Positions 11,951-43,720 of a DNA stretch of 64,000 nt are shown in pieces. The stretch lies in assembly GCA_009192285.1 (NCBI GenBank), contig CM018603.1:2844588-2908587 (forward strand). Direction: 5' to 3'. The notes beneath the pieces were generated by a model. That model saw only the letters and a program-made list of their open reading frames with translations, was not told the origin of the DNA and did no database searches. Every line of letters begins with the position of its first letter. Position 1 is the stretch's first letter. The DNA is from Morchella semilibera. Its lineage: Eukaryota; Ascomycota; Pezizomycetes; Pezizales; Morchellaceae. The translations under genes were made by a program, and so were the position numbers.

Positions 11951-13279
11951 ATGAGTCGGCATTCAAACTGCACCCCTCACCAAACACCCCCCGACAACAC
12001 CCCGGCAAGCCCTAAACAAGGCCAAAAACGAAGCCGCATATCCTCCCATAGAGATAAAAACGCATCCAAAAAACAGGAGGTCGGACCATTAATCCCCGGG
12101 CAGTACATTGATAGTGAGAGCTCGGACTCCAGCCATAGTTCAGCCTCTAGCAGTAGTGTTGCATTCCACATAGAGATCGAGTCAGAGGAAGAGATACCCC
12201 GGAGCACCCAGAAGGGAAAGTCGAAAACGTCTGAGAAGCCTCCGAAAAGCCCTGTTCTACGCCCTCCAGGATCCGAGCCTTCAGGATCCGGGCCTTCAGG
12301 ATCCAGGGCTCCCAAGGGCTTATCGGTGGCCCCTGGCGCCCCCCCAATGAAACCTACCCATAAGACTCGACGTTCCCTATCCCCCAGGTTAGACCCACAA
12401 GTCAGGAAGTGGGTCCAAAAGACCAAGGAGGCCCCTGAAATGGCACCACGATACAAACAGCCCGCCAAGTACATTTGCCAGATCACATACGACTGCCGGA
12501 GAATCTTGCACTTAGATAAAGATGGTATCTATAAGGCTCAACGCAAACAGCTCGCCGATGAGATGACAAGGACAGAGTGGGTGAATAAATCCAGCTCGGG
12601 CGATTCTTCATTCAATCATTTGTGCGAATATGCCATGGATCACAAGGCCCTCATGAATTTGAAGCCCAAGTGGTTAGAAAAGGCTTCAGAGGACTCTATA
12701 ATGATCCAAGCAACCCTAGCCCATCTCATTGTAGATCTATCACAAAAGAGGAAAAGGATAGACAAACGACATAACGAAGCTTTGGAAAGTGCGGTGGATA
12801 ACGAGAGATAGTACAAGATGGTACTCAAGTCCTGGGAGAATTTAGGAATACCTCCCAGGCCCGCAATAACCGTACATGTTATTGACCCAGAGAAGGCTAC
12901 TGCCATTCCAAGTGATACATACCGTCCATACGACTGGTATGGGATTGCGTCGCTTACGCCATTAACCGGCATTCTCGAAAGGATGTCTATGTATGATTTA
13001 GCAGCCCTCGCGCTGAAGCGAGTCCCACCAGCCGCCTTAGGGGGCCCTAATAGGGCTGTTCGAGCCTTCTACAGGGCGATATCCAATTCGGCACCCCGGG
13101 GGCAGGCACCTTATCCCCCATATCCGGAATATGTGCCGATAGGAGACGATCAAGAGCTGGAAGGTTGGCTCAGGGCCACAGAGGCAAAACCCTTGAGGCT
13201 TTGTGCGGTGCTTCATATGCCTTCGGCAATCGTAGCTGGGCCTACCCAAAGGCACCAAACGCCTTCACCAGAGGGATGA
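11951..13279 (+). pseudogene. P1 ORF2a, Plavaka-linked conserved protein of unknown function
   Basis: An ATG start at 11951 opens a Ser/Pro-rich, charged N-terminus (about 150 residues) with GSEPSGSGPSGS repeats. A conserved module follows: YDCRRILHLDKDGIYKAQ, LADEMTRTEWVNKSSSG, then ATLAHLIVDLSQKRKR. A C-terminal module follows: TVHVIDPEKATAI, RVPPAALGGPNRAVRAFYRA, ELEGWLRATEAKPLRLCAVL. The same order occurs in ORF2b and in the ORF2 of lineage E (AEMTRTGWVNKRTSG; EAWMLGSLAKPLRVLAILHRE). One in-frame TAG (12809-12811) separates the two modules; otherwise about 440 codons. I do not recognise the family. The basic, disordered N-terminus suggests a nuclear, possibly DNA-binding helper of transposition. 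Confidence 0.65.
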
Positions 13280-13620
13280 GATTACCTGACTGAGGACGAT
13301 ATTAATGATATAGAGCTTTTGGATTAGGAACTTGAAGGTCTGAATATACTCTATCCATGAGCTTATCGGGGTGGGCATTATAAAATGCTCTTCCTGAATG
13401 GTATTTATATGAATCTTATTATTCTGACTGAAACCACCTGTAGGTGCAGAGGATAAAACCAGCGACGACAGTGATAGGCTCCCAAACCTCTGTAGGCAGT
13501 TTAGAAGGCTTGAGGAGCCTCTATTTAGAAATTGGAGTTTTTTGTTTTTGCACATGCAGTTCTTAATTTTACCCCGGTTACCTCTTTAGGTTTTAGCAAT
13601 AATTATATGATTAATCTTTT
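13280..13620. other. Spacer after P1 ORF2a
   Basis: It contains decayed coding sequence after the ORF2a stop, AT-rich DNA, and scattered GAAGGCTTGAGGAGCCTC-type motifs. No gene or RNA is visible. Confidence 0.4.
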
Positions 13621-13775
13621 GTCTCCTGTGATCCCTGCCAATCTCCTGGGCTCTCCTGATGGCTCGCCAAGCCCTCCTGATATTTCCGGAAACTACTGAT
13701 GATTAAGCGAAACCTCCTAAGCTCTCCTGGGCAGGAGGCTCCTCGAGCCTTCAGATGGCTTCAAAAGCCCTAATT
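13621..13775 (-). repeat. Internal copy of the P1 subterminal repeat unit
   Basis: Read on the minus strand it matches one unit of the array at 18,520-18,990: GGAGAGCTTAGGAGGTTTCG, CTTAATCATCAGTAG, TTTCCGGAAATATCAGGAGG, GCTTGGCGAGCC. It sits between the two ORF2 copies, exactly where a duplication boundary would lie. Confidence 0.7.
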
Positions 13776-14119
13776 AGTGTGCTTGGTGCCTCTGCTCTCC
13801 TGATTCGAGTGATATCATGTGATACAATATTTGCTATGTAGTGAGGTTTGATCATAGATAAACACCGCTCACCTGTTTTCATGTCTTTAAACCTACCACT
13901 TTCAAATCTGCCACTTTCAAACATACGGTTCTTCAGGCCACTCGAGGCCTTTCAAGGCTTCAATCTTGAATTACTATAGAGTATTTAAGATGGTACAGTA
14001 TCCACTCTAAAGCTTTATATTCAAGCTATTGACAGCCGCGTCTTTAAACATCCCTTCAAATCTTAATACCTACCCCAAACCTCCAAAAAGGCCCCACAAA
14101 CCCGGAAAAGGCTCCAACC

Positions 14120-15362
14120 ATGCCACCACGCGAGAGACCAGCTGCTACGTACAAGTGCACGACAATCCACGACTGCCGAAGAATCCTACAATTGACTGGA
14201 AAAGATGCTATCTATAAGGCTCTCTGTAGCGAGCTAGCGAACGAGATGGTAAGAATAGGGTGGGTTAATAAGGTCACTTCGGGCGAACAATTGTTCAACA
14301 ATCTGTGTCAATTTTGCATGGACCACAGGGCCATCAAGGCGCTAAAGACCACATGGTCAGCAAAGGCTTCAGAGGACTCTATAAAGATCCAAGCAGCCCT
14401 CCTCCGCCTGATTATCGATCTATCCCAGAAGAGAAACAGGACAGCCCAACGCCACGGTGGGGCTTTGGGGGGCGCAGATGATGAAGTTAAAGATACACCC
14501 ACCTCCGGGGCACCTCCTGCCCGTACAAACGAACTGCAGACCCTACCGGAGTTCTGGCAGGCCTTGGGAATACCCTACAGGCCGGCAATAACCATACATA
14601 TTATTGACCCAGAAAGGGTTACAGGCATCACCAGCGATATATACCGCCACTATGATTAGTACGGGCCCGGATCGCTTATCCCCTTTATTAACATCTTTCA
14701 GGAGTTGTCTATGCAAGATTTAGAAAGACTTGCAATAAAGCGGGCCCCACCAGCGGCTCCAGGGAGCCCCGCGAGAGCTTTCCGAGCCTTCTACGGGGCG
14801 TTGTCCAATTCGGCTCCCCGGGGGCAGGCACCCTATCCCCCAAATCCGAAATATGTGCCAGATCGGAGATTCTGAAGAGCTGGAAGGTTGGTTCAAAACC
14901 ACAGAGGTAAAACCCTTAAGGCTCTGTCCGGTGCTTCACAGGCCTTCGGCAATCGTTACTGGGCCTACCCAAATGCTTCAAACACCTTCATTAGAAGGAT
15001 ATCAGCACCTTACCAGAGGCGACATTGATGGAATAGAGCTTGATGTTGAGGAGGAAATGCTAACGTTTAGGAATAAGGTTGATCAAACAGGTTAGAATAT
15101 CTCCAAGCCCTGTACTGATGAGGGGTGCCAGATGGTCCAGGCGGTGGTGCATGAGCGTTCCGAGAGGTACGCGGCGATTGGAAGAAGGCTCGATGAGCAT
15201 TATAGAAGGCTCTACCCAAATGCCATTATCTTTGAGTCTTGTCACTATGATCGTGAACATATTTGGACCCAGGCCGAGAGAAATCACCTGTTTAGGCACA
15301 CCAATGGTGAAGGCGGAGATGCCAATGACCGTGTCTCCGAGGACTCTAGTGACCTAGTATGA
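14120..15362 (+). pseudogene. P1 ORF2b, second decayed copy of the ORF2 protein
   Basis: It opens with ATG at 14120. It reads TIHDCRRILQLTGKDAIYKA, LANEMVRIGWVNKVTSG, RLIIDLSQKRNR, TIHIIDPERVTGI, RAPPAAPGSPARAFRAFYGA, then loses frame near 14,870. The tail 15,132-15,362 (ERYAAIGRRLDEHYRRLYPN) corresponds to the C-terminal part of lineage-E ORF2 (LELLNQKYLNKYPVGVG). It is clearly a paralogue of ORF2a, about 60-70 percent similar by eye in the conserved module. The long Ser/Pro N-terminus is missing. The upstream region repeats the ORF2a upstream pattern (GATATCATGTGATACAATAT against 11,680-11,700), so gene plus promoter were duplicated. Confidence 0.7.
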
Positions 15363-15363
15363 G

Positions 15364-15455
15364 TTTAGAAGGCCCGAGGGGCGTTGATTGGAGCTTAGAA
15401 GGCTTGATTAGAGCTTAGAAGGCTTGATTAGAGCTTAGAAGGCCTGATAAGCGGT
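15364..15455. repeat. 20-bp tandem repeat GAGCTTAGAAGGCTTGATTA
   Basis: Four consecutive units, the first and last diverged, lie directly after ORF2b. The unit contains GAAGGCT, the word enriched in P1 subterminal DNA. Confidence 0.8.
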
Positions 15456-15691
15456 TTGATGTTGACTGCAGTTGTTTTGTGTTTTTTGGGGAGGCAGTTG
15501 CAATTTTGCCTGTTTGGGAATATATGGTTGCCTATTTGGGTATCGTGTTATCTTATTTAAGTTAGTTATAGAATTGATTCTGTCTTAGCGAGCCGTCTGG
15601 AAGGCTTCTCGCCAAAAACCTCTAATTGCCGAGAAAAAACAAAGGTGATATGGTGTGAATCGAACCATATATAGTGGAGGTGAGAGCCTTC
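15456..15691. other. Spacer upstream of the P1 DUF6532-like gene
   Basis: A T/G-rich stretch with GAGCCGTCTGGAAGGCTTC at about 15,590. No open gene is visible; it is the likely promoter region of the next gene. Confidence 0.4.
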
Positions 15692-18445
15692 ATGAAGGCT
15701 CTTCCAGCCTTACAAACCACCATCATGGCTTCGCAGAGAGCAAAAATCAACAAGCGTGGCGTTGAGGAAGGACATGGCATGCAAGCCCCGATCTCCTCGT
15801 CCATTAATAAACGTCTAAGGGGGGCGATGAGTATTTCGAGTGCTGCGAGCAGTAGGAATTCCGGTACTACAGAACCAGATACTGACCCCGATTACTATGG
15901 CTCCCCGAACCCTCCAGAAAGGTTTCCGGACGGGGCAATATTGGTAAACGGAGTGTTGCAGGGTCCACCAAAAACCTGGAGTGATTTTGATGATCATCCA
16001 GAGGAGGAAGACTACGTTCAAATCCATGAGGATGACTATGAGGACGAGGAGCCGGGAGATGAGAATGCACCACCGCCCCAGCGTATGCTTTTATCAGAAC
16101 GGAGTATATCCCCAGTCCCACCATCCCCACCACAACCACCACAACTACCACCACCGTCACGACCACTGCCACGACCACCATCAAACTGGGGGTCGCGAGC
16201 TGGAAAAACACCAAGGGAGGCCCCTGTGGCCTCCACCAGGGCTCTTGCAGCCACTCGAAGGAGACCTAGTGGACTGGTAGCAGAAGCAATTGCTTCTTCT
16301 TCTTTTGCAGTAAATATGATGCAGGTATGTGATATTTAAATCCCCCTCGTCTCAGTCAAACCGCTGATATAACGGAGCACGGAAACCGTCATGTCATGAA
16401 TTTACAAAGGCAGGAAACTCCACGGAAGGCTGGAGTAGCCTCCGAAAGGGCTAGTATCATTGCCTCCACAGGTTCCTCATTTCGCTCGACCAGCAGCACC
16501 TTGCGACAAGAGCTCGACCGCGAGAACGAGACAACCCCTTCAAATTCACAACCCTTTCGTATGCCTAGCTCTCCACAGCAATATCGTAGAGCCCTATCTC
16601 CATATAGAACGCCAACGCCTTCGCAGTATGGAACGCCAACGCTTTCGCAGTATGGAGCACCAGAGCCTGACTCCATTAATGAAAACACAGCAGAGGCCAA
16701 GTCCATAATCAAGCATGCGGGATACCTTCTCGGACGTTATATATTGCTCGAGGAGCCTTGGCCTCAAGCTCATTCTCTTAGTATTAACGTCCGTCGGTTT
16801 TGGAGTGAGGCAAACGACCATTTTAATACAAGTTTACCAATGACTAAGTTAGCTAGGAGCGGCGTGAGTGCCTCGCGCGCCTTTCGGAGGGCTTAGTGAG
16901 CATTCCCTAACTGCTTCCATTAGGTTCAAATCAATTGTTCGCGGGTGAGATCGCACCTTGTTTTTATAGTGAAGGACTACATGTCGAAGGATGTTTTGTA
17001 TGGCTTGAGTGAGGAGAAAACGCCAGAGGCAAAGGGTAAGAAGGTATCCTTTCTCCTCGAAAATGACCGTTTTATACGCGATCCTGATAATTATACTGTA
17101 AGAGCTCTCTCCACCGTTCTATGAGCCTTTGGCAAGGTGCTGACAGCCACTAGACAGGCCGGCTTCACTTTTGGGCCCCGGAAATCGTAGAAGTAATATT
17201 TCTAAAATATTACAAAGGTGATAAAATGCGTGAGGCCAGGGATCCTGGTTTCATTGATAATATATCTCAGGCATTTATTAGCCTAGTTTGCACCGCAATT
17301 GTAACGGAGTAACCCGACGCAAAGAAGAAGATAACAATAATGACGCAGATAGGCTCGAGGAGCACAGTCTACGCGACGAGGAGACCGACGAAGACAAGAA
17401 CAACACCGGGCAGGCACAAGCACAGGCACCGGTGAAGGCAAAGGCAAGGGCAAGGGCAAAAACACAGGGCAGAGAAAGTGAGGACCGAATGGACCTCAAC
17501 GAGAACGATGATAGATACTATGGGTTTCCTCTTTCTCGGAGGACAGAGTCTTTGGTACGAGAGGCTATGGCTTAGAAAGAGGAGTAGATTCCTATGTACC
17601 GAGATAACAAGAAGACGAGACAGAGAGAAAAGAAAGAAGGAACTAAGGAAAACATCTATCCCCGCTATTTAACACACCTCTTCCACTAGTCCGCCAAGAC
17701 TACATATCGTCATCCACAGAATTCCCTAGAACCCCATCGCAACCACATTTCATATTCCTCCACACCATCTTCACTAGTTTTATTACCAATCCATCACGCC
17801 ATAGAACCTCATAGAATCCCCATAACGTCATACCCGTATCGCATCTCCCGGCCTCGCTTAACATTTCCTTATCTATCGCAACCATTCATCGCTCACCGAA
17901 CTGTCGGGGCAGATACCAAGATGCCGGGACAGCAATCTGGTTTATCTTACGATCTTAGAAAACAGTCATATACGTCGAAGGTTTGAACTTCAATCCACAT
18001 CAGAATCCGGATATCATGAGTAAGGCGCACCAAGCCCTCTAAAAGGCTCCTTCTGACTTCGGGATACCTCTAGCTACCTATAACGGGATGTTAAGCACTG
18101 GGGGAAGAGAAGCAAGGAGAACCAGGAGGGCACACTGAAAGTAATACGAGAATCAATTCGCGAGAAGGTAAATAAAAAAGTTTCAAAGCGCCTTATCTAT
18201 ATACTAATAAGCCTTTTAGGTCGATGAGTTAAGAGGGCCTAAAGAGGTTATATCCAGAGTCGGCCTGGAGGAGGATGATGTTCAATTAGCTGCGGATATA
18301 GCCGCATAGAGAGTTGCAAAGATACGCGGGAAGAAAGGCAAGGCACCAGCAGCGATTGAGTGATTTGGAAGACGTGGGCATGGCGAAGGCGGGAGAGGCA
18401 TTTCAAGAGCCTCCTACCGCCTCGACGGTGGATATGTGATTTTGA
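15692..18445 (+). pseudogene. P1 gene 3, DUF6532-like protein, multi-exon, interrupted
   Basis: Possible ATGs lie at 15692 and 15725. Exon 1 is acidic and Pro-rich and ends RRRPSGLVAEAIASSSFAVN; a GTATGT donor lies at 16325. Exon 2 (about 16,410-16,863) ends GRYILLEEPWPQAHSLSINV then RRFWSEAND, with GTGAGT at 16,864 and acceptor TATAG at 16,969. Exon 3 reads SKDVLYGLSEEK and VSFLLENDRFIRDPDN, with a GTAAGA donor at 17,098. Exon 4 reads FWAPEIVEVIFLKYYKGDKM, then DNISQAFISLVCTAI and is split by solo LTR-A (17,300-17,931). It resumes at 17,937, and the tail reads VGLEEDDVQLAADIAA. Each exon matches lineage-E gene 3. The helical core (LL.ND.FI, APEI.EV, L..TAI) resembles the uncharacterised fungal domain DUF6532. 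Stops occur in the last exons. Confidence 0.6.
17300..17931 (-). mobile_element. Solo LTR-A inside the P1 DUF6532-like gene
   Basis: 632 bp from TGTAACGG to GCCGGGACA, with the exact 5-bp duplication GCAAT (17,295-17,299 and 17,932-17,936). It sits in the exon coding the conserved TAIW segment, so it postdates P1. Confidence 0.92.
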
Positions 18446-18519
18446 GGGAGGACTCCTATTTTTAAATATGGTATGAATAATCAAAGTAGATTTTGAGGTA
18501 TCAGTAAATTAGTAATAGT

Positions 18520-18995
18520 TTGAAAGTCCTCGGAGATATTAGGAGAGCCCAGGAGATAAGCAGGGATTACAGGAGAGCATGGGAGATCTGGCTTAATCTT
18601 CAAGAGTCTCCGGAGATATCAGAAGGGCTTGGCGAGCCCTCAGGAGAGTCCAGGAGATTGGCAGGGATCGCAGGAGAGCTTGGGAGGTTTCGCTTAATCA
18701 TCAGCAGTCTCCGGAGATATCAGGAGGGCTTGGCGAGCCCTCAGGAGAGCCTAGGGGAGAGCTTGGGAAGTTTCGCTTAATCATCAGTTGTCTCCGGAGA
18801 TTGGCAGGGATTACAGGAGAGCTTGGGAGGTTTCGCTTAATCATCAGTAGTTTCCGGAGATATCAGGAGGGCTTGGCGAGCCCTCAGGAGAGCCCAGGAG
18901 ATTGGCAGGAATTACAGGAGAGATTGGGAGATCTCGCTTAATCCTCCGGAGATATCAGGAGGGCTTGCGGAGCCCTCACGAGAACGCCCTACTCA
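18520..18995 (+). repeat. P1 right subterminal array, about 105-bp tandem units
   Basis: Four to five imperfect units. Each has TCTCCGGAGATATCAGGAGG, GCTTGGCGAGCCCTCAGGAG, AGCCCAGGAGATTGGCAGGG, ATTACAGGAGAGCTTGGGAG and GTTTCGCTTAATCATCAG. Several sub-words are short palindromes (TCTCCGGAGA, GGGCTTGGCGAGCCC). One reversed unit is at 13,621. No coding sense. Confidence 0.85.
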
Positions 18996-19271
18996 TCCTT
19001 GGGCTTATAACAGAGCGTCTCTGAAGCTTCTCTAAACGAAAACCTCTTACTAGTGTGGAGGTCTACGATATCTCGCAGCCTCTTGGGAGAGAATAACAAA
19101 GCCTCCAGATGGTGCCAGGAGAGCGCCACTTAGTATCAAGAGAGCCCGCTAAGCCTTCTTGAAGGCTCGGGAGGCTCCTGCAAAGGCTCAGGAGGCCCTC
19201 ATATGGGCGGGTAAGCCCCTGGAGATCGAAAGTTTGACAGGAGTCTCTGAACGTCTCCCACACCTCGCGGG

Positions 19272-19302
19272 CCTCCGGTAGGCTTGAATAGGCTTGCTGA
19301 TG
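19272..19302 (-). repeat. P1 right terminal inverted repeat
   Basis: Read inward from 19,302 it is CATCAGCAAGCCTATTCAAG then CCTACCGGAGGC, matching the left end at 7994 in the outer nine of ten bases and in the ATTCAA and CCGGAGGC blocks. Confidence 0.88.
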
Positions 19303-25781: not shown

Positions 25782-25799
25782 TCGACCTATTCTCTATCC

Positions 25800-26115: not shown

Positions 26116-26314
26116 TGTCTTCAGCTTGTTATTCAAAATAACGGCCAAAATAACTTCAATAAGTAGTATAACAATATCAATAGTTTTTTTTGTGGACCCG
26201 TACCTGGCACTACTCATAGGGTATGGATACGAGACTAGACCCATACCTATTGCCAATGATCCCCATTGCTTTGAAAGGTGTACATCAGCAAGCTTGCAGT
26301 TGTCTCCGGGCGCA

Positions 26315-26665
26315 TAATCCTCCGCCATGGCGCATCCCTGCGCCCTCAGCGCCAGGAGTGCCCTGGCGCAAACCTTGTGGTTACCCTGCGCCAGGTGGCA
26401 CCCTAGGAATTACCCTGCGCCCGGCGCCCTCCTGGGAATCGCTCTGCGCCTAGCGTTATCCCGTGAATTATCCTGCGCCTGGCGCCATACACCGAATCAT
26501 TCTGCGCCAGGCACCATCCTCTGAATCATTCTGCGCCAGGCACCATCCTCTGAATTATTCTGCGCCAGGCGCCACCCTGTGAATCATTTTGCGCCAGGCT
26601 CACCTTATTCTTCTCCATTCACGCCAGGAGATTTCCCGTGTCCCATACGGCACCTGGCGTTCCAC
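26315..26665. repeat. E block 1 left subterminal repeats (CTGCGCCAGGCGCC words)
   Basis: Eight to ten imperfect units of about 31 bp of the form CTGCGCCAGGCRCCATCC followed by TCTGAATCATT. The CGCCAGG core also appears in reverse orientation near the right end at 43,920-44,230. Confidence 0.85.
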
Positions 26666-26729
26666 GAGATTTGGCGATAGCTCCTTTCACTATCGCGAAT
26701 CCCTACGAAGCTTTAGGTAGGCTATATAT

Positions 26730-29700: not shown

Positions 29701-29735
29701 TATCGCTTGCTGCAAAAAGGACAGGAGGACTTCAT
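26730..29735 (-). pseudogene. E block 1 Plavaka-type transposase
   Basis: ATG at 29735 opens MKSSCPFCSKRYSSSANFEK, a C2H2 finger with HLRNIH. An acidic Ser-rich linker, IPYYYRDPMTIIRFLLGQRAF, WWWETQVRRSFP, GTHLTNFSGDKK, CPRCEVEYKNLG, KPDLLHNIYLGMLKHMMEW and a C-terminal VVNIRCILGMAHLFE follow; the stop is at 26730. About 1,000 codons in total. Compared with block 2 it has extra bases at about 28,775 (CTTTCTT for CTTCTT), 28,355 and 27,934 and a one-base loss near 29,375, so it is read in five pieces. It has the correct frame at the two places where block 2 is shifted. Errors in either copy could be mutation or sequencing. Confidence 0.82.
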
Positions 29736-29871
29736 TGGGTGTCGCGATAGCTCCCATGGCTCTCTCGGAGATGGTTCAAAATTACTACTGCCAAGCCTGT
29801 AGATTACTAATACTTGCTAGGGTGTCTTGGAGGGCACATAACCTCTTGCTAAACAAACCTTCTAGCAACGT

Positions 29872-30294
29872 CATATATTCACGTTGAAAACTAACCAACA
29901 TATGCTCTCAGAGCAAACCCAACATATGCTCTCAGAACAAACCCAACATCTATCCCACACATCGGCCAAACTTTCTCGGAGTCCACCACTACTCCAAAAG
30001 GTTTCACGAATACCCTCGAAATCGTGGCTCGAGATCGTGGGCAATGCCGGAAAATCCCTATCTTTTGATACCCAAATGACTATATCTGTACTTGAAAACG
30101 AGATCAAAACAGCTAACTATTCAAAGAAAAGCTATCATGCCAACACCAAAGTGGACTCGAATACCAACACTCATGTTGATCTACGTCATTTAGTAACTTA
30201 CCCAAAAGCATCGAAACACACTCGAGCAATCAATGATTCTGGCTCTGTGCGTTCTGGCGAAGACTGTGGAAGCTTTCGAAAGATCCTCTCATAG
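29872..30294 (+). CDS. Small open frame between transposase and ORF2 (block 1), doubtful
   Basis: An open frame of about 130 codons, starting at an ATG near 29,900, reads MLSEQTQHMLSEQTQHLS (a 26-bp direct repeat) and then SWLEIVGNAGKSLSFDTQ. It ends at 30294. The same frame is open in block 2 (to 38,021) with one residue changed. Two near-identical copies give no independent support, and P1 has no counterpart. It may simply be promoter and leader DNA. Confidence 0.2.
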   Translation, partial: HIFTLKTNQHMLSEQTQHMLSEQTQHLSHTSAKLSRSPPLLQKVSRIPSKSWLEIVGNAGKSLSFDTQMTISVLENEIKTANYSKKSYHANTKVDSNTNTHVDLRHLVTYPKASKHTRAINDSGSVRSGEDCGSFRKILS

Positions 30295-30689
30295 CTCTTA
30301 ATGACTAATTTGATTTCGTGTGAGTGTTGGAAGAAGAGGTATAAAGAACTGCTTCTTCCACCCTCGGGAGACCTTTCTTCACCATCCCCATTACTCTTCA
30401 CAACCTCGCCAGGCATTGAGCTGGTGTGTTCTACCTATATTACGTTAATCATTCGCCTTTTCAATTTCATTTCTACTTGATACCATCCACTTCGACAGCT
30501 CCAACCTGATACCTCTCCCAGAGTTTCAAGTTGAAAGATGCCTCCCAACGCTAGTAAGGGTACCCCTGGGAAGGTAGTATATAAACACCACATGGTTGTT
30601 CCCTAATCCCTATACATTAGTTCCTAACATACCTCCAGTCCGGTGGCAAGTCGAGAGGCCCCTCCCATCGTACTCACGATACCTTACAA

Positions 30690-32875
30690 AGCACTGCCAA
30701 AAGCCCTAGAGTAGAGATCCCAACCCCTCGAAAGCGTCAGCGCCAACCAGTCCCTGAATCCGAAGACGATATTGCCACAAGGCCCTGTCATTTGAACCCA
30801 CAGGCTCCTGATAGCCCTCCCCAAAGCTCTCAAAGATTGTTCGCAACCCCCCGAAAACGTGGGCGCCAACAAGTTCTTGATTCCGAAGACGAGATTGCCA
30901 CACGTCCCATCGTTCTAACCTGCAGGCTCCTGAGAGCCCTGACACCACTCCCGAAGCCCTGAAAGATCTCGACCAACCCCTCGAAAGCGTCTGCACCAGC
31001 CTATCCCCGAAATCGAAGAGGAAGACTCGGAGTTGATTGTTCTCTCACATAGAGTAGGAATTCCCTGGAGTTACGACGGTCCCCCACCAGACCTCACCCC
31101 TAAACAGCAACCGACACCCACGAAGACTGCTCCCGCGCCGCCAAAATCTCGCAAGCCCCAGCCGCCCCCATTGGAAAAAGAACAGCAGCAAGCAGATATT
31201 CGCGTTGGCTAAAGTATCAAGCACCCCAGAGACCATCACCACATCTCCCAAAACCACAGCAAATAACCCCCAAAACCACAGCAAAAACCATCCAAAACCC
31301 AGCACAACCTCCAAAACCACACAACTTCCAAAACACCTCAGCATCCGCAAAACACGGACTGCTTCGCAGCCCAAGAGTACTCCAAAAGCCCAACCAAAGC
31401 TCCAAGAGAACGCACCAATGCCCGCGCAAAAATCTCAGTCGTGGGGAGATCTCTACTGACTATTCCAAACCTGCTTAGTACCACCCGAGACCATCCACAA
31501 AGCTCCCAACTATCGCGCGTATCTTAAGAGCGCACATCAAGACGAAGATAGAGGACGAGCACACCATCCGAGGCGGAGACTGAGCGACGGAATCGAGGAC
31601 AATCAAGACGAAGAAGAAGACGAAGAAGAAGACGAAAGACGAAGACGAAGACCGACGAAGACGAACCTCGCCACGCCTCACAAGGACGTCGTCAGAGACA
31701 GAAAAAAAAAAGGGCTTTCAAGGCAAAGTGGTCAAAGGAGGTTGTTTCGATGGACGCAAGCACTGCCAAGGTGACTTTGGGACTGGCCGCCTCGCCAAAG
31801 AGTTACAACAGGTTGAGGAAAGACCTCGCGGCAGAGATGACGAGAACAGGATGGGTCAATAAAAGAACTAGTGGGCTTAAACATTATAATGAGTTGGTGG
31901 CATGGCTTCTCGAACAGAGGCCTCTAGTAGGTTTGGCCACGATTATGGGAGGTCAGAGGAATAGCGCCAGGGCCAAGGTACAGGAAGCACTTACCTGGCT
32001 AGTGTAGATGTCAGTCGGAAGGAAAAGTGTCTCTAAAAGGGCATGGGAACCGGGAATTCACCGAGATTACGCTCACGACCCCAGACTGGACGCTCGACCG
32101 ATTCGGATATCTTGCCGCAAAGGTCCTCAGAGCGCTCGGCAAAGCGCCAGAAGCTATCGCGCACACCGGACCGGACTAATATCTGGGTCAACCAGTTTGT
32201 CGACCCGGACCAGTTTAACGACTATTGATTCTGATGCTAGGAGGACGGGAGTACGCTTGGACTATGAAATAATAACCTAGTTTACGCATGCCGTGATGAC
32301 CGCGAAGAATATCCAAGAGCTTGGGGAGAGTACGCATCCAAGATATCCCTGTTGTCGATTGTCAGGAATTCTATGGCTCGATGAACCAACCAGCCGAACC
32401 GGAGGAGGAGCCAACCTGGGTCCGCATAATGGACACTGAGGAGGTAGAAGCCTGGATGCTGGGAAGCCTGGCGAAACCTCTCCGGGTTCTGGCCATACTT
32501 CACAGAGAAGGCCAGACTGAGCCCCATGGCGGCGACGAAACCCCTCCTAGAAGACTATACCAGCCGTACACCACCAGTGACGATTATGGACACTTTGAAT
32601 ATCCGGCTGAAGACTCTGAATTTGAGGGCGGAGTTAGATTGACCTCGATTGGAACCAGGCTTATCATGCCGAAGAATGATGCATCGTTCCAGGTAAACCT
32701 CCACAAGATCTCGTCACGCCGGAATAGCAGCAAGCGCCCTGAGCTCCTCAACCAAACCTTAATAAGTACCCTGTGGGGTTGGATTGCAGACCGTAACTTC
32801 AGAATTGGCGTGTCTGGGGCTCGGAGATCGCTCAGAAGCGTGAGGAGACAGAAACAAAGCCCCGCGCCGCCGTAA
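30690..32875 (+). pseudogene. E block 1 ORF2, heavily frameshifted
   Basis: Same protein as block 2 ORF2. It has TPRKR repeats (TPRKRQRQPVPESEDDIATR), a Thr/Lys/Pro-rich middle, an acidic DEEEDEEEDE stretch, then SMDASTAKVTLG, AEMTRTGWVNKRTSG and EAWMLGSLAKPLRVLAILHR. Relative to block 2 there are more than a dozen single-base insertions or losses, many in short runs, concentrated between 31,130 and 32,940. A preceding TATATAAA box lies at about 30,577. Confidence 0.7.
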
Positions 32876-33151
32876 ACAATGGGAAAGATGAAAGACTCCC
32901 TTGGTTCCCTCCCCGGAGGAGTGTGACAGGTGACGTGATGGTGATAGTGCTTAAGCCTATTTGGCGAGAGTTTGGAAAGGTTTTGCGAGATTCTGGTGAG
33001 TTATTCGCACTTCAGCATGATTGATCTATGTTAACCGACCCCATAGATTTTTTCCCCACTATTTTTTATTAAGGTATACAGAGGTTTCGAAAGGTTTGGC
33101 GATAGCTTTAAGAGCTTTCAAAACGGTCGGTAACAGCTTTGTGTTAGGTAT

Positions 33152-33970: not shown

Positions 33971-34047
33971 TGGTCGGATTCATATACTCAGTGGCTTGGG
34001 GGAGGGTATGGTGATCATCAGCAAGCTTGCAGTTGTCTCCGGGCGCA

Positions 34048-34395
34048 TAATCCTCCGCCCTGGCGCATCCTGCGCCCTCAGCGCCAGGAGCGCCCTGGCG
34101 CAAACCTTGTGGTTACCCTGCGCCAGGTGGCACCCTAGGAATTACCCTGCGCCCGGCGCCCTCCTGGGAATCGCTCTGCGCCTGGCGTTATCCCGTGAAT
34201 TATCCTGCGCCAGGCGCCATACACCGAATCATTCTGCGCCAGGCACCATCCTCTGAATCATTCTGCGCCAGGCACCATCCTCTGAATTATTCTGCGCCAG
34301 GCGCCACCCTATGAATCATTTTGCGCCAGGCTCACCTTATTCTTCTCCATTCACGCCAGGAGATTTCCCGTGTCCCATACGGCACCTGGCGTTCC
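34048..34395. repeat. E block 2 left subterminal repeats
   Basis: The same CTGCGCCAGGCGCC-centred units as at 26,315-26,665, nearly identical. Confidence 0.85.
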
Positions 34396-34461
34396 ACGAG
34401 ATTTGGCGATAGCTCCTTTCACTATCGCGAATCCCTACGAAGCTTTAGGTAGGCTATATAT

Positions 34462-37400
34462 CTAACTAAATTCATTCCATGTTTGCAGATTTATTCTAGT
34501 ATTCACAAGCCAGTTTCCCTCATCGATCTCAAATAAATGTGCCATCCCTAAAATACACCGTATATTCACTACCCAAATTTGGTTACTACTCCTTCTAGAG
34601 GCTTTAAGAAGACCATGAGAGCTATCGGCAATCCCTAGGTCTTTGGCCTCCAAGAGTTCGATCGCGCATAGCCGGTGCGCCCGTCCCCTTTTATCCCGTA
34701 GCTTAAATAAAGCCTCCAGGCGTCCTGGTAGCCTCCCCCGAACGCTCCCCATTGATCTCGAGTCCCCACCGTTACCCATGTCCAATCTCTCCTCGGTGAT
34801 CTTTTTCTAAATGCTGCATTTCCCGTGCAGCGCAGGTTATGAATTTCGTACGCATCTGGTCTTTGAAAAATTGGAACCGGAACCTGGAGGCAGGTAAATC
34901 GTTCAACTCGGAGCTCGCCAAGGTTCTCAAAGCTTCCGCCAAAGCTCTCTGAACATCCCGCATCCTTCGCATATTCTCTTACCATGCGATAAAATTTTAT
35001 TCTACTCATCGCAAGTCCATCTGCAATATCGCATAAGCTTTCAAACCTGGTAGAGCGATTGCAAAGCCTTTTTAAGGGTAACTCTGAGTCGATTATAGGC
35101 CGTTCATTCGGTGCTCTCTTCCGGTCTTCTATCTTAAAGATATCAAGTAATTCTCGCAAGTTCTCACGATGCTCCCATAGGCTCTCGTTGCGGTTCTCGG
35201 AAGCTCCGTCAGCTCCCACAATATCCTTGAGGTTTAATATCCGTATTTCTAGTGCCAATCGCTTTCCGCCGCAATCAAGTATTTGGGTCGCCGCATCAAC
35301 TTTGTTTGAAGCGGCGTATGCTTCTTTGATTTGGTGTACGTGGGCCAGTTCGCTGATATCCGTAGAGAACATAGGAATATTCCCGAATCGCTCCACATGC
35401 TCTCGGTAATGTGATAATTGATGCAATTTGATGAAGTTGAAATGAGATTTCTCGCGGATCTCGCGGACCTCTTCTAAGCCACGGTGAATCCTCTGAGAGC
35501 TCTCCTGCCGGAGAGCCCGTGTTCGATTCTTTGCATCCTTCTTAGTTTGCTTGTAGGCTTGAAATTCTAAAAAGATATCCTTATACCTATGGAAGTCCTT
35601 GAGATAACTCTCTAGATATTCAAGTGTACTCTTGGTATGATTCCCGTATTGAGCCATCAGGTGAAAGTCAATCATTGCCCGAACGCATTTCAAAGCCTTT
35701 CCGAAGTCAGCTCTGACAGAACTCCCTGGATTTCTCAGAGCCACCGCCAAAGCTCCCAGAACTATACGCCCTAGGTTTCGCATCTCTTTCCCCTGCCATT
35801 GCGTGGTTGCCCTGTAAGGCTTGTTCGGTACTGCAAGCCGAGGATAAGGCCCAATCTTTGACCATGCTATATCGAACGCGTCGAGACGCCCGTGTTTCTT
35901 GAGAAACCCTTGAACCCATTCCATCATATGCTTTAACATTCCAAGGTAGATGTTGTGTAATAGGTCCGGTTTGTTCAGGTCGTACACCTTGCATCTCGGC
36001 ATATCCCATAAAGCATTGAAGAGAGTCTTCAAAGACCTCGATACAAGGTATTCTACCGGCGATGTATTCGTCGGATTCTCATTAAACTGCCGTACCATCT
36101 CCTGGTAGGTCTCCTGATCACGCATAGAGCTCTGCCGATAGCTTCCAAGGTTCTTATACTCCACCTCACATCTTGGGCAGGCGAAATTGCTGATGTTTTG
36201 CAACGAGGCGTGCTCAGGTTGGTCCGCGATCCACCCACACAGTACAGGAAAACATAGCCGTTCATATCCATCCGCACAGGATATCAACTCGCCCTCCTCG
36301 CCACTACTTTTCAGGCTTTTGAAGATATCTTTGAGAGCGCTGTGCAGAGCCATCTGCGATTCCCGACGCAAAGTTGCATTCGCACTCGCATTTGAACTGA
36401 GCTTAGGGGGCACTGGTAATAGCGCCAGGAGTACTAACGAGTGCCCAGAGACTTTCATTCTCACCGAGGACTTGATATTTCCAATTGTGAGATAGATTGG
36501 CCATGCCTTCTTATCACCACTAAAGTTCGTCAGGTGAGTGCCATCCGAGGCACAGATTACCGGAACTAATGTCGAACCCTCAGGGAGAGAATTCTTTTTG
36601 AGATCAGTCATGACTTTTCTGACTCCAACAAAACCTCCTAAAGATCTCGGAAAGCTTCTCCTCACCTGTGTTTCCCACCACCAGTCCCCTGTATGCATTT
36701 CGCCGTAGATTCTCTCTCCCTTCTCGTTGTGTTCCATTGACGGTGCAAATATAAGAGACCCTTGAAGGCCCGTTGTCCAAGGAGGAATCGAATAATGGTC
36801 ATAGGGTCGCGATAGTAGTATGGTATGTTTTTCCCTCCTATAACAACCTCCGCATGCTTCCATGTTGATCTCCCTAGGCAATCGTTCATTTCCTCCATTT
36901 TTCGTATAAAACCTCGCCCATTTCTATAGGAGCTATGGCAATGGTCTCCAGGGGCATGTAGAAAGAAGCTATCGATACTTCCTTGTGATGCTTTGGACAA
37001 AATAAAGTACCGCGCCATCCGGAATTCATAAGATGAATTGAAAGGGTGCCATGGGTTGCCGAGAAGCCGTTGTGCGCTTTCCTGATAGCCCTCAGAGCGA
37101 TATAGAGCCTCCCCAGCACCTTCGTAGACCGTCGTGGATGCATCGCGAGTAACTCCCAACTCCTCCTCACAATCCTCCCTATTGTCTACAAAGTAAGACT
37201 CTGATTCTAGGTCTGAATCTCCAGCAGTTCGTTGAGAGAAGTTAGAATATGTAGATGACCCGTCCTCGCAACTAGCATCATCCTGATCAGAGCTTTCTGA
37301 AACCTCGTGAGACTCCTGTAGTCGTTTGTGATTCTCTTGCAAAAGATCGCATTGATTTTTCAACCATCCATCCGCTTCGTTAGGGTGGATATTCCGTAGG

Positions 37401-37462
37401 TGCTTCTCAAAGTTCGCCGAGGAGCTATATCGCTTGCTGCAAAAAGGACAGGAGGACTTCAT
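34462..37462 (-). pseudogene. E block 2 Plavaka-type transposase
   Basis: Same protein as block 1, kept in two long pieces: 37462 to about 36,765 (finger CPFCSKRYSSSANFEKHLRNIH, acidic linker, YYYRDPMTIIRFLLGQRAF) and about 36,765 to 34,733 (WWWETQV, GTHLTNFSGDKKAWPIYLTI, CPRCEVEYKNLG, LLHNIYLGMLKHMMEW, HFNFIKLHQLSHYREHVERF, LRCTGNAAFRKRSPRRDW). One base is missing near 36,760 (GACCCTT where block 1 has GACTCCTT) and one near 34,733, after which the last 90 codons continue in another frame to 34462. With only two single-base differences this may have been an active gene very recently, or may be intact if they are sequence errors. No introns are apparent. Confidence 0.85.
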
Positions 37463-38414
37463 TGGGTGTCGCGATAGCTCCCATGGCTCTCTCGGAGATG
37501 GTTCAAAATTACTACTGCCAAGCCTGTAGATTACTAATACTTGCTAGGGTGTCTTGGAGGGCACATAACCTCTTGCTAAACAAACCTTCTAGCAACGTCA
37601 TATATTCACGTTGAAAACTAACCAACATATGCTCTCAGAGCAAACCCAACATATGCTCTCAGAACAAACCCAACATCTATCCCACACATCGGCCAAACCT
37701 TCTCGGAGTCCACCACTACTCCAAAAGGTTTCACGAATACCCTCGAAATCGTGGCTCGAGATCGTGGGCAATGCCGGAAAATCCCTATCTTTTGATACCC
37801 AAATGACTATATCTGTACTTGAAAACGAGATCAAAACAGCTAACTATTCAAAGAAAAGCTATCATGCCAACACCAAAGTGGACTCGAATACCAACACTCA
37901 TGTTGATCTACGTCATTTAGTAACTTACCCAAAAGCATCGAAACACACTCGAGCAATCAATGATTCTGGCTCTGTGCGTTCTGGCGAAGACTGTGGAAGC
38001 TTTCGAAAGATCCTCTCATAGCTCTTAATGACTAATTTGATTTCGTGTGAGTGTTGGAAGAAGAGGTATAAGAACTGCTTCTTCCACCCTCGGGAGACCT
38101 TTCTTCACCATCCCCATTACTCTTCACAACCTCGCCAGGCATTGAGCTGGTGTGTTCTACCTATATTACGTTAATCATTCGCCTTTTCAATTTCATTTCA
38201 ACTTGATACCATCCACTTCGACAGCTCCAACCTGATACCTCTCCCAGAGTTTCAAGTTGAAAGATGCCTCCCAACGCTAGTAAGGGTACCCCTGGGAAGG
38301 TAGTATATAAACACCACATGGTTGTTCCCTAATCCCTATACATTAGTTCCTAACATACCTCCAGTCCGGTGGCAAGTCGAGAGGCCCCTCCCATCGTACT
38401 CACGATACCTTACA
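37463..38414. promoter_or_regulatory. Divergent promoter region of E block 2
   Basis: It separates transposase (leftward) from ORF2 (rightward). It contains GCGATAGCTCCCATGGCTC at about 37,480 next to the transposase start, a 26-bp direct repeat at 37,625-37,675, a doubtful frame to 38,021, and a TATA-type box (TAGTATATAAAC, about 38,302) about 110 bp ahead of the first TPRKR repeat. Functional roles are inferred. Confidence 0.5.
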
Positions 38415-40714
38415 AAGCACTGCCAAAAGCCCTAGAGTAGAGATCCCAACCCCTCGAAAGCGTCAGCGCCAACCAGTCCCTGAATCCGAAGACGATATTG
38501 CCACAAGGCCCGTCATTTGAACCCACAGGCTCCTGATAGCCCTCCCCAAAGCTCTCAAAGATTGTTCGCAACCCCCCGAAAACGTGGGCGCCAACAAGTT
38601 CTTGATTCCGAAGACGAGATTGCCACACGTCCCCATCGTTCTAACCTGCAGGCTCCTGATAGCCCTGACACCACTCCCGAAAGCCCTGAAAGATCTCGAC
38701 CAACCCCTCGAAAGCGTCTGCACCAGCCTATCCCCGAAATCGAAGAGGAAGACTCGGAGTTGATTGTTCTCTCACATAGAGTAGGAATTCCCTGGAGTTA
38801 CGACGGTCCCCCACCAGACCTCACCCCTAAACAGCAACCGACACCCACGAAGACTGCTCCCGCGCCGCCCAAATCTTCGCAAGCACCCAAGCCGCCCCCA
38901 CTTTGGAAAAAGGCAACAGCAGCAGCAGATATCGCGTTGGCTAAAGCTTATCCAAGCACCCCAGAGACCATCACCACATCTCCCAAAACCACAGCAAAAA
39001 CCCCCAAAACCACAGCAAAAACCTCCAAAACCACAGCAGCAACCTCCAAAACCACAGCAACTTCCAAAACCACCTCAGCATCAGCAACACGGACTGCTGT
39101 CGCAGGCCCAAGTACTCCAAAAGCCACAACCAAAGCTCCAAGAGCAACAGCACCAACTGCCCGGCGCCAAGATCTGCAGTCTGGGGGATCCTCTACTACT
39201 AATTCCCAACCTGCTAGTACACCCCCGAGAGCCATCCACAAAGCTCCCAGAGCTATCGCGGTATCTAAGAGCGCACATCAAGACGAAGATAGAGACGAGC
39301 ACAACCATCCCGAGGGCGGAGACGAGGACGAGGACGAGGACAATCAAGACGAAGAAGAAGACGAAGAAGAAGACGAAGAGAAGACGAAGACGAAGACGAC
39401 GAAGACGAAGACGAACCTCGCCACGCCTCACAAGGACGTCGTCAGAGACAGAAAAAAAAAAGGGCTTTCAAGGCAAAGTGGTCAAAGGAGGTTGTTTCGA
39501 TGGACGCAAGCACTGCCAAGGTGACTTTGGGACTGGCCGCCTCGCCAAAGAGTTACAACAGGTTGAGGAAAGACCTCGCGGCAGAGATGACGAGAACAGG
39601 ATGGGTCAATAAAAGAACTAGTGGGCTTAAACATTATAATGAGTTGGTGGCATGGCTTCTCGAACAGAGGCCTCTGGTAGGTTTGGCCACGATTATGGGA
39701 GGTCAGAGGAATAGCGCCAGGGCCAAGGTACAGGAAGCACTTACCTGGCTAGTGGTAGATGTCAGTCGGAAGGAAAAGGTCTCTAAGGGCATGGGGAACC
39801 GGGAATTCACCGAGATTGACGCTCACGACCCCGAGCTGGACGCTGACGATTCGGATGATCTGCCGCAAAGGTCCTCAGAGCGCTCGGCAAAGCGCCAGAA
39901 GCTATCGCCACACCCGGACCGGACTAATATCTGGGTCACCGTTGTCGACCCGGACCAGTTTAACGACTATGATCCTGATGCTAGGAGACGGGAGTACGCT
40001 TGGACTCATGAAAATAATGAGCCTAGTTACGCTGCCGTGATGACTCGGAAGAATATCCAAGAGCTTGGGAGAGTCGCATCCAAGCATATCCCTGTTGGTC
40101 GATTGGTCAGGGAATTCTATGGCTCGATGAACCAACCAGCCGAACCGGAGGAGGAGCCAACCTGGGTCCGCATAATGGACACTGAGGAGGTAGAAGCCTG
40201 GATGCTGGGAAGCCTGGCGAAACCTCTCCGGGTTCTGGCCATACTTCACAGAGAAGGCCAGACTGAGCCCCATGGTGGTGATGAAACCCCTCCTAGAAGA
40301 CTATACCAGCCGTACACCACCAGTGACGATTATGGACACTTTGAATATCCGGCTGAAGACTCTGAATTTGAGGGCGGAGTTAGATTGACCTCGATTGGAA
40401 CCAGGCTTATCATGCCGAAGAATGATGCATCGTTCCAGGTAAACCTCCACAAGATCTCGTCACGCCGGAATAGGCAGCAAGCAGCCCTTGAGCTCCTCAA
40501 CCAGAAGTACCTTAATAAGTACCCTGTGGGTGTTGGTATTGCAGACCCTAACTTCAGAATTGGGCGTGTCTGGGGGGCTGCGGAGATCGCTCAGAAGCGT
40601 GAGGAGGACAGAAACAAAGCCCCGCGCCGCCGTACAATGGGAAAGATGAAGACTCCCTTGGTTCCCCTCCCCGGAGGTAGTGGTGACGGTGACGGTGATG
40701 GTGATAGTGCTTAA
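38415..40714 (+). CDS. E block 2 ORF2, Plavaka-linked conserved protein
   Basis: The N-terminus has three repeats of about 40 residues, each a basic TPRKR followed by an acidic patch (SEDEIATRP). A Thr/Lys/Pro-rich middle (KTTAKTPKTTAKTSKTTA) and an acidic run (DEDEDNQDEEEDEEEDEE) follow. The conserved modules are SYNRLRKDLAAEMTRTGWVN, ALTWLVVDVSRKEKVS, WVTVVDPDQFNDYDPDAR, EEVEAWMLGSLAKPLRVLAI and ALELLNQKYLNKYPVG. The two long frames (to 39,524 and from before 39,500) meet at a run of ten A at about 39,451; the second frame is open from that run. No clear ATG opens the first frame. The function is unknown; charge pattern and disorder suggest a nuclear nucleic-acid partner. Homologues here: ORF2a and ORF2b of P1. 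Confidence 0.62.
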
Positions 40715-41329
40715 GCCTATTTGGCGAGAGTTTGGAAAGGTTTTGCGAGATTCTGGTGAGTTATTCGCACTTCAGCATGATTGATCTATGTTAACCGACC
40801 CCATAGATTTTTTCCCCACTATTTTTTATTAAGGTATACAGAGGTTTCGAAAGGTTTGGCGATAGCTTTAAGAGCTTTCAAAACGGTCGGTAACAGCTTT
40901 GTGTTAGGTATTATTTGTTGTTTCCTTGGTCCGCGCATGTTAACCACGTAGCATTTTGGGTGATTACTATTATTAGAGAGTGTTGATTTGAGGCTTGGTA
41001 TTATTAGATAGCGTTGATTTATTCTTAGGTTGGGAGCATTTATTTGATACTGATAGGTAGCGAATATCAAAGTGATTTGAAGCCTTCTTGAATGCTACTA
41101 GTGATCTCGAAAGCTATCGCGAAGCCTCCTGAAAACATCATTATTGCGAGTGATTACCGATGAGACTATTTTAACCCAAATTGGTGTGCCCAGCCCATCT
41201 AATTAGCCAATTTTAGTCTGTATGTGGTTAGCCTTAGATTACATGAAAAATTTTCACGCCAAGCACTTCGTTTGATTAGAAATCAGGACAGCTTTCAAAA
41301 CCCTCAGGGGGGCCCTCACAGGCATCAAG
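40715..41329. other. Spacer between ORF2 and gene 3 in E block 2
   Basis: AT-rich. It holds GGCGATAGCTTTAAGAGC (about 40,858) and GAAAGCTATCGCGAAGCC (about 41,109), members of the GCGATAGCT motif set, and the point (about 40,910) where identity to block 1 stops. It is the likely terminator and promoter region; no gene is seen. Confidence 0.45.
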
Positions 41330-43720
41330 ATGCCTCAAGCAAAGCGTCCCTCAACGTCCGAAACGACCAAATCTACCCCAAGGCTCCCTGACCCTAAAGA
41401 CCACAATGGGGAAACTACACAGGAAGATCCAGACGAGGGTGAAACTGTACTCGAGAGAGCTCCCAACACTCTCACGAGAGTCAGCACAACCACGAAGAAA
41501 GCTCAAGGAAAGCGGCCGTCAGTATCCGAAAAGGAGCACTTCTTCTCGTAAACGTTCGAGGCCCACAAATGAAATTTCATCGGATGAGGATCTACCTGAT
41601 CCTCCATTGCGCCGTTCGGCCAAAGCTCAGCGAGTCCCCAAATCGTCTCTGAGGAGCCATTCTCGACGGAACAAAAAATCTAAAAAATCTGGTGCTCGGG
41701 TGGAGTTTAACATCGAAGAACAAACGTCGGAGGGGGAGCAAGAGGTTCAAGAGCGCCTTACAACCAGTTCTTCGGAATATGATGATGACTGCCTAGACAC
41801 TCCGGTAATACGCGACCAGAGCCTGAGGCATCAGGTCGGAGACAAGAGACCCCCGGGAACGCAGGTCGGAGACAAGAGACCCCCGGGTACGCAAGTCGCC
41901 GGAAAGAGACCTCCGAATAGTCAGGTAACGACTGCCAGAGGTGTGGCGAGTGCCCGGAGAAAGCCCACCAGTGCGGTTGCTGAGGCAATTGCGTCGTCAG
42001 CAGTGGAGATTAACGTTATTGAAGTAATTAACCCCAGTCCTTTTTTGATAAGTGACTTAAATGAAAGAAATTTTAGATGGGAAATCGTACATCGTCGAAG
42101 CCAACGAAAAATCCATCGAGCGCTCCACAAAGACCGCCGATGACTCCTGTGGACCCAGCGATGGCTCCTACTGCTACCCCCAGAAGACTGACTGCTTTTA
42201 ATTACTCTTCATCTTTTCGTTTCCCGCCCCCTTCCTCTTCTAGGTTTGGAGAATCGTCACCAACACCAATGGCATTGAATCCTGGATCCATGCCACCAAG
42301 CGATGATAGCTCCTGGGGCGGTTCTACGGGCTTTGGGATTAGCTCTCGAATGCCTCAAAGAATGGAGCCATCCCCACTAGGGAGACCACCTCGGAATAAC
42401 GATACAGCGAACTCTAACTATCTGTCGCCTTCACCTTCTTTACCTCCGCCCCACGATGACGACAGGTATCATTACCAAACCCCTGAAAGCTCTCGTCAAG
42501 CCTCTTCTGGCCAGATACCTCGTACACCTGCTCCAAACTCTAGAAGTGCGAGTGTGCTTCCTTTGGAAGCCCAAAGGATTGAGAAAAAGTGTAGTATATT
42601 GATAGGTGATCACACACTGTTTGAGGAGCCTTTTCCAAGCCCTGCGAGACTCTCGGTTTTGGTGGTGAATATGTGGGTACAAGCAAGTCGTAGTTTAGGA
42701 ATCAGCGCAGAAATCGACGAGGTTATTATAAAACAGGTGAGTGTCCCCGAAGATCCCATGATAGCTCCTAGGGAACTGAGGAGGCCCCACAGATTAGGAG
42801 CTTGCACTCCCGAGTGCGCTCACACCTGATGAGCGCAGTGAAGGAACGGCTAGCAGACTCTAGGATTTACGGAATTGCAAAGATTCGCACACAAGTGGAG
42901 AGGGCCGGGACAGTTGACTATCTTTTGAGGAATGATCGGTTCATCAGCCATCCAGCGCATTATGAGGTATATCCAAATTCTTGGGGACCACGGCGATAGC
43001 TCTAACAAGCCTTAGACGTCTAGCTGCGAATTCTTGGCTCCGGAGATCATCGAGGTTTTATACTATAGGTTTTTTGATGGGGCGAGGAGGCGAGGGTCCC
43101 GTGAACCAGATTTCCTTGACCGAATAAACCATACGTTGATATGCCTGATAGCGACCGCCATTTGGCATGGGATTCGCGCATGGTCTACGGGGAATTATGT
43201 GGTGCCGCAAAATTTCCAGACTCAAAATGATAGTGTAGTGAGTAAGTATTTCTCATATCTCCTAGAGATATGGCGAGTGCTAACCGAGGTGTTACGAATG
43301 CTCTAGAAACCTTCACGAGGATGGTAAACACTTGGACGTCATGTAGTCGTTCCAACCAAGAGGGCATCTTGAAATTGATAAAGGACAATCTCCGAGACAA
43401 GGTAAGAACCCGATCTTAATCACCGGTTATAACCTAAACTAATGATTTGTAGATACAAGAGAAGAAGGGGGTCACGGTCGAGGATATCCCAGTCGAGGGT
43501 CTTAGCGAGGACGATGATGCTCTGGCGGAGGCTCTGGAAGCTCTCAGGAGTGCTCGGGGAGGCCAAGGCGAGAAATCTAAACCCGGAAAAACTAACCTTC
43601 CACCACACGGGCTTGAATATGGTACGGATGGAGAGCCGGACCTACCTGAAGAAGAAGAGGAAGAGATTGAGGAAATAGTGGAAGAGGGTGGAGAAACAAC
43701 AGAAGAGGACCCTAACTAAA
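41330..43720 (+). CDS. E gene 3, DUF6532-like protein, multi-exon
   Basis: ATG at 41330; the frame changes once near 41,540 (small intron or indel). The charged N-terminus contains the triplet repeat QVGDKRPPGTQ (about 41,835-41,920). Then RRKPTSAVAEAIASSAVEIN ends exon 1; a 53-bp intron (GTAATT at about 42,023 to TTTTAG at 42,075) follows. Exon 2 ends IEKKCSILIGDHTLFEEPF and SVLVVNMWVQASRSLG, with GTGAGT near 42,736. Exon 3 has VRSHLMSAVKERL and VDYLLRNDRFISHPAHYE, with a GTATAT donor at 42,967. Exon 4 has FLAPEIIEVLYYRFFDGARR and LICLIATAIWHGIRAWSTGN, with GTAAGT near 43,241. Exon 5 is GILKLIKDNLRDK, and exon 6 (from 43,453) ends in an acidic EEEEEIEEIVEEG tail. The LL..D.FI, APEI and TAI..I..W.TG pattern resembles fungal DUF6532 (function unknown). 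Exon edges are approximate. Confidence 0.62.

Follow-up and report, generated by a model that had tools for sequence, protein, structure and literature searches.

Two diverged Plavaka-type transposons of Morchella semilibera carry the same pair of accessory genes beside the transposase

In a 64,000-nucleotide stretch of the genome of the fungus Morchella semilibera (assembly GCA_009192285.1, contig CM018603.1, positions 2,844,588 to 2,908,587, forward strand; hereafter the window), two diverged Plavaka-type DNA transposons, P1 and E2, carry the same three genes in the same layout: a transposase on the minus strand, then, on the plus strand, a gene that we call ORF2 and a gene encoding a DUF6532 (PF20149) protein, referred to as gene 3. 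Judged from the sequences, it is well supported that ORF2 and gene 3 belong to the transposon, because P1 inserted as one piece and left a precise target duplication, because gene order and orientation recur in a second element whose transposase is 60% identical to that of P1, and because the two genes bear signs of purifying selection. The layout agrees with a first-pass annotation of this DNA, which spoke of a conserved cargo; 'accessory genes' is the better term.

Results

P1 is a single insertion

P1 is bordered by a 2-bp target duplication, CT, at 7992-7993 and 19303-19304, and its termini read TATCAGCAAG on the left, from 7994, and CATCAGCAAG on the right, at 19302 read inwards. It interrupts a gene for an RNase H that resembles those of long interspersed nuclear elements (LINEs). 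When the flanks are joined as at an empty site (7993 to 19305, with one copy of CT dropped), an uninterrupted frame results, which is lost if the two bases are retained. The peptide from the joined flanks matches the Pfam RNase_H profile with 40.8 bits over positions 4-140 of 141; the right flank alone matches positions 112-140 only, with 27.1 bits, and the left flank alone matches no Pfam family. The restored frame and domain thus identify P1 as one insertion of 11,309 bp that made a 2-bp duplication; its contents, later inserts apart, therefore moved together. The two pieces of the RNase H domain that P1 splits lie at 7581-7993 and 19303-19401; that the element hosting them is a LINE is a guess. 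The features of P1 are as follows, LTR standing for long terminal repeat.

7994..19302, 11,309 bp: P1 Plavaka element, interrupting the LINE-like RNase H gene
8121..8316: left subterminal tandem repeat, 80-bp unit
8604..11481, minus strand: transposase (Plavaka, PF18759), its frame broken in places; the N-terminal finger segment, with CPFC, lies at about 11413-11481 and is degenerate
11951..13279, plus strand: ORF2a, C-terminally truncated, with one in-frame stop
13622..13729, minus strand: right subterminal repeat unit in inverted orientation (95% identical), located between the two ORF2 copies
14120..15362, plus strand: ORF2b, a second copy of ORF2, frame broken
15725..18400, plus strand: gene 3 (DUF6532), several exons with an LTR-like insert within; exon limits by eye, 3' limit approximate
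17300..17931, 632 bp: LTR-like insert in gene 3, TG...CA, not part of the unit
18541..18983: right subterminal repeats, unit of about 101 bp

P1 does hold the three genes that the first-pass annotation gave it, but it is not the simple three-gene unit described there, since ORF2 is present twice and gene 3 is split by the LTR-like insert. The latter is flanked by a 5-bp duplication, GCAAT (17295-17299 and 17932-17936), and is read as a solo LTR; behind it the reading frames again resemble the tail of E2 gene 3. The region upstream of ORF2b contains a 52-bp stretch resembling that ahead of ORF2a, and the right-end repeat unit of P1 (18570-18921) recurs in inverted orientation at 13622-13729, between the two copies, which suggests that the duplication of ORF2 arose along with end sequence, perhaps through recombination between related elements.

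The layout recurs in E2

The second lineage is represented by E2 and by a partial, nearly identical copy, E1.

34016..44254, 10,239 bp: E2 Plavaka element, with termini CATCAGCAAG (34016) and TTTGCTGATG (44254)
34118..34331: tandem repeat in the left subterminal region of E2, its 29-bp unit containing CTGCGCCAGGCGCC
34462..37543, minus strand: E2 transposase (Plavaka PF18759 and C2H2 finger); frame breaks as assembled
39293..40714, plus strand: E2 ORF2, 473 codons from stop to stop; the frame's first ATG is at 39500 and upstream exons are possible
41406..43719, plus strand: E2 gene 3 (DUF6532), with introns predicted by eye at about 42024-42076, 42737-42792, 42967-43015, 43242-43288 and 43402-43452
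26283..33151: E1, a third Plavaka copy, which covers the left two thirds of E2 at 97.6% identity, up to an assembly N (33152)

E1 stops at this N, the only one in the window and outside both P1 and E2, ahead of the place of gene 3, so that gene 3 falls outside its assembled part. The differences between E1 and E2 near 33152 are clustered single-base indels, and the E1 sequence there looks like poorly corrected long reads at a contig edge. Because of the indel clusters and the N, we set E1 aside as a third witness, and its broken frames and the gap at gene 3 count neither way. The single N links E1 to sequence that has no match elsewhere in the window. The last bases of the E2 left flank are GAT, and TA both ends the E1 left flank (26281-26282) and begins the E2 right flank (44255-44256), as the duplication of one element would, an agreement with a chance of 1 in 16.

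None of the copies as assembled has unbroken frames for all three genes and, given these stops and frame breaks, they look like decayed elements or elements marred by sequencing error.

Transposases and termini

Both transposases match PF18759 on the minus strand (Pfam cut-off 26.3 bits), that of E2 at 34635-36923 (2e-66, 224.9 bits) and that of P1 in two frames, at 8604-10697 (3.3e-48, 165 bits) and 10717-11181 (1.8e-14, 54.2 bits). They are 60% identical over 605 codons, and D127, D234, C249, C252, H501, H505 and E525 are identical in the alignment of these two sequences, so that both have the order D, D, C(2)C, H(3-4)H, E, with the catalytic residues assigned by reading. The C2H2 finger that the first-pass annotation attributed to both is recognisable at the N-terminus in E2, though below the cut-off (20.4 against 25.2 bits); in P1 we could read only a degenerate segment, in which CPFC and the last His are kept and a Tyr takes the place of the first His. 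With the transposase as query, a sequence search of solved structures gave nothing significant (best E 0.094). In a scan of viral contigs the single transposase gave no pattern match and the alignment 47, none of them from relatives, and a scan of prokaryotic genome contigs gave 117 pattern matches, again without relatives; since these collections are viral and prokaryotic, such misses are uninformative on linkage in fungi.

P1 and E2 share the terminus CATCAGCAAG, and their subterminal repeats are lineage-specific, the P1 units being unlike that of E2. Blastn of the P1 ends against the E ends gave no match, nor did a search of the P1 left end with short words, so the earlier description of a short shared terminus beside unrelated subterminal repeats holds. 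ORF2 and gene 3 had also been said to start from a shared divergent promoter region. Gene 3 does not start there but lies downstream of ORF2 (362 bp apart in P1, about 690 bp in E2), and the divergent regions of P1 and E2 have no similarity above that of shuffled sequences.

ORF2 and gene 3 are homologous between the lineages and more diverged than the transposase

The proposed homology of the accessory proteins was borne out: five P1-E2 alignments scored 117-280, while shuffled sequences (200 per alignment) reached at most 45-55; among the five, the four tests of ORF2 gave 117-149, where the shuffled maxima were 50-55. ORF2 is 28-34% identical in three stretches, and its N-terminal part has 20 columns invariant across four sequences, of which those of E1 and E2 are near-identical. 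Gene 3 is rightly called DUF6532-like, as its proteins, spliced by eye, exceed the curated Pfam cut-off of 24 bits in both E2 (61.6 bits, 1.2e-16) and P1 (39.1 bits, 9.5e-10). Between P1 and E2 both genes are more diverged than the transposase, with the accessory proteins 28-35% identical against 60%.

Within the window, ORF2 queries matched only P1, E1 and E2, and tblastn with parts of DUF6532 matched only gene 3 of P1 and of E2. Gene 3 is thus present at two of the three Plavaka transposase loci, the third (E1) meeting the assembly N first, and neither ORF2 nor gene 3 was found apart from a Plavaka transposase in this window.

Past purifying selection

For ORF2a against ORF2b, the ratio of nonsynonymous to synonymous substitution rates (dN/dS) was 0.29 (135 codons, 0.13-0.51), 0.17 (36 codons, 0.01-0.53), 0.40 (67 codons, 0.23-0.74) and 0.35 (46 codons, 0.16-0.99) in four segments picked around frame breaks, with stop codons left out and the ranges being bootstrap limits. 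The P1-E2 pair is too diverged for a direct dN/dS, and here identity was compared at codon positions 1/2/3, which is the evidence of selection on gene 3: 0.51/0.59/0.31 for gene 3 (162 codons), 0.43/0.52/0.26 (151 codons), 0.43/0.47/0.35 (138 codons) and 0.50/0.56/0.34 (122 codons) for ORF2, and 0.70/0.77/0.41 for the transposase (605 codons). The third positions of ORF2 and gene 3 are near chance and the first and second are conserved, which points to long purifying selection. The sequences therefore indicate that both genes have been under purifying selection in the past, a check that the first-pass annotation had asked for by dN/dS and that ORF2 passes in these terms (0.17-0.40); for gene 3 the evidence is that of codon positions only.

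Discussion

Gene content, the insertion of P1 as one unit, homology, past purifying selection and unequal divergence are the observations on which we build; whatever is said below on function, including DNA binding and the recognition of repeats, is proposed. We would lay even money on P1 and E2 representing, in two lineages, a single type of Plavaka transposon that has three genes when complete, with an ORF2 that acts like TNPA of CACTA elements and gene 3 as a cofactor. A DDE transposase would cut and join at the shared CATCAGCAAG termini. Its partner would be the ORF2 product, whose N-terminal domain is conserved and probably helical and which would most likely bind the lineage-specific subterminal repeats so as to assemble or license the ends, like TNPA in CACTA/En-Spm. 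Gene 3, for which we make only a modest claim, would most likely encode a second nuclear cofactor, either in the same complex or keeping the element unsilenced. The first-pass annotation had made functional partners of the two proteins; of this, the genes' membership in the transposon stands, and their partnership in transposition is what we infer.

The elements themselves resemble a described group. In excerpts of the report on PlavakaB, this group has termini CATCA..TGATG and 2-3 bp duplications (Kojima 2025, PMC12730594); both E2 ends and the P1 right end fit, the P1 left end, TATCA, is one base off, and the CT duplication of P1 fits, while none is seen at the discordant flanks of E2. The PF18759 transposase and the order D, D, C(2)C, H(3)H, E are also as those excerpts give them for the group. 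The difference lies in gene content, since the extra gene discussed in those excerpts is a TET/JBP dioxygenase, carried by some Plavaka elements and thought to aid escape from silencing, and they mention neither ORF2 nor DUF6532 (PMC12730594). Among the P1 and E element proteins scanned, with short frames covered in part, Pfam gave no TET/JBP hit. In the passages on Plavaka elements that we retrieved, neither ORF2 nor DUF6532 is described as part of an element, though these extra genes may well have been described before.

The accessory proteins are 28-35% identical where the transposases are 60% identical, and the subterminal repeats differ, which fits a DNA-binding partner that would track lineage-specific end repeats, by analogy with TNPA of CACTA or VANC of VANDAL elements. 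In the excerpts available, CACTA elements likewise combine a transposase (TNPD) with a fast-diverging second protein, short conserved termini and variable subterminal repeats; this second protein, TNPA, binds those repeats and is required together with TNPD for transposition (PMC2613891). In contrast, P1 and E2 encode the two proteins in separate, divergent genes and not by alternative splicing of a single unit, and they have a third gene besides. Homology to TNPA was not seen in Pfam scans of the element proteins. VANDAL21 of Arabidopsis has a transposase of an unrelated class, MULE (Mutator-like elements), and accessory proteins other than ORF2 and gene 3. It is similar, as far as the excerpts go, in having three genes (VANA, VANB, VANC), a conserved transposase against a fast accessory protein, and rapidly changing tandem repeats. 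VANC is reported there to bind fast-changing non-coding tandem repeats and to lift silencing, with the transposase much more conserved (PMC5735166, PMC10398659).

Either model, TNPA-like or VANC-like, fits the sequence. If ORF2, gene 3 or both were anti-silencing factors acting on non-coding tandem repeats, they would remove repressive marks as VANC does and take no part in strand transfer, an account that the parallels with VANDAL21 favour in its three genes, its far more conserved transposase and the fast-changing targets of VANC (excerpts of PMC5735166 and PMC10398659), together with the same contrast of identities here and the TET/JBP genes of some Plavaka elements (excerpts of PMC12730594). 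The VANC-type families DUF1985 and DUF287 are, however, absent from the Pfam hits of ORF2 and gene 3, as is TET/JBP from those of the element proteins scanned, and we think the account unlikely, at perhaps one chance in a few. We favour the TNPA-like reading over the other because CACTA and Plavaka are placed together in a CMCT clade, in excerpts that leave open whether Plavaka lies inside CMC (PMC12730594). It seems improbable, in turn, that DUF6532 and ORF2 are captured host genes travelling as passengers of no benefit to the element: gene capture is known in fungal DNA transposons (TET/JBP; excerpts of PMC12730594), and PF18759 and PF20149 occur in one list of additional domains for two Ganoderma species (excerpts of PMC8955403), so that host paralogues may exist, but passengers would not be expected to recur as a pair, with their order kept, in two lineages so diverged, nor to show purifying selection and third positions close to saturation in ORF2 and gene 3. 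Least credible is that separate elements lie side by side by chance or are nested, or that the assembly is at fault. The crowding of the window with nested repeats, the N at 33152 and the discordant flanks of E2 might prompt such an explanation, yet the precise empty site largely refutes it for P1, the layout is repeated inside the limits of both elements, and the only N lies outside them.

Several observations weigh against the TNPA-like account that we prefer. Only two lineages were observed, within one window, and no target duplication is seen at the two discordant flanks of E2: the right flank is a Gypsy reverse transcriptase, the left has no match in the rest of the window, and a matching insertion site was sought within the window and not found, so that rearrangement or misassembly may have affected one side. 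ORF2 matches no DNA-binding family above the Pfam cut-off; the best, PF24465 (Tri-helical; cut-off 27 bits), stays below it with a trimmed piece of E2 (25.3 bits), longer pieces (21.3 and 21.5 bits) and E1 (19.7 bits), and has no match in ORF2a or ORF2b of P1. AlphaFold models are poor, with a mean predicted local distance difference test (pLDDT) of 33 for ORF2 and 58 for its N domain, and Foldseek with the N-domain model gave 7 uninformative matches (best E 5.4). Gene 3 offers no functional clue. Searched by sequence against solved structures, ORF2 (best E 0.11) and gene 3 (best E 0.53) gave nothing significant and the ORF2 N-domain profile gave no match; PHROGs gave none with ORF2.

More tentatively, and with rather less confidence than doubt, DUF6532 might be mainly a transposon protein. 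Plavaka elements would then spread it within a module of three genes, whose two accessory proteins would recognise subterminal repeats that change fast and would either license transposition or relieve silencing; this would make them a separately evolved fungal counterpart of plant TNPA and VANC. In the literature passages retrieved, DUF6532/PF20149 was found mentioned only as a list entry (PMC8955403). If the unit is general, it would give a biological setting to an uncharacterised fungal family whose members are maybe annotated as host genes, and would imply that a transposase is not all that Plavaka elements need or use. It would also add a further case, beside TNPA of CACTA and VANC of VANDAL, of an accessory protein apparently keeping pace with changing transposon repeats, and would make repeat masking and the counting of genes in mushroom genomes more accurate.

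Other repeats in the window

The window is rich in repeats, and its content marks it as fungal, namely the Plavaka and DUF6532 genes, Gypsy reverse transcriptases and a Pif1-type helicase. An LTR-like family of about 630 bp, with members about 60-90% alike, includes the insert at 17300-17931 and copies near 1532, 5114, 23670, 25149, 49520, 50317 and 51420, as well as one at 47268-47906 (reverse). Copies of another repeat, about 137 bp long and 94-99% alike, lie at 44314-44450, 46950-47086, 47962-48098 (reverse) and 52738-52848; it is possibly a small non-autonomous element, and a stretch of about 50 bp in it is similar (76-80%) to the left subterminal region of P1. Gypsy reverse transcriptases are found at 21319-23340 and 44438-46738, and fragments of a Pif1-type helicase, on the minus strand at 54915-56780, are probably the remnant of a Helitron.

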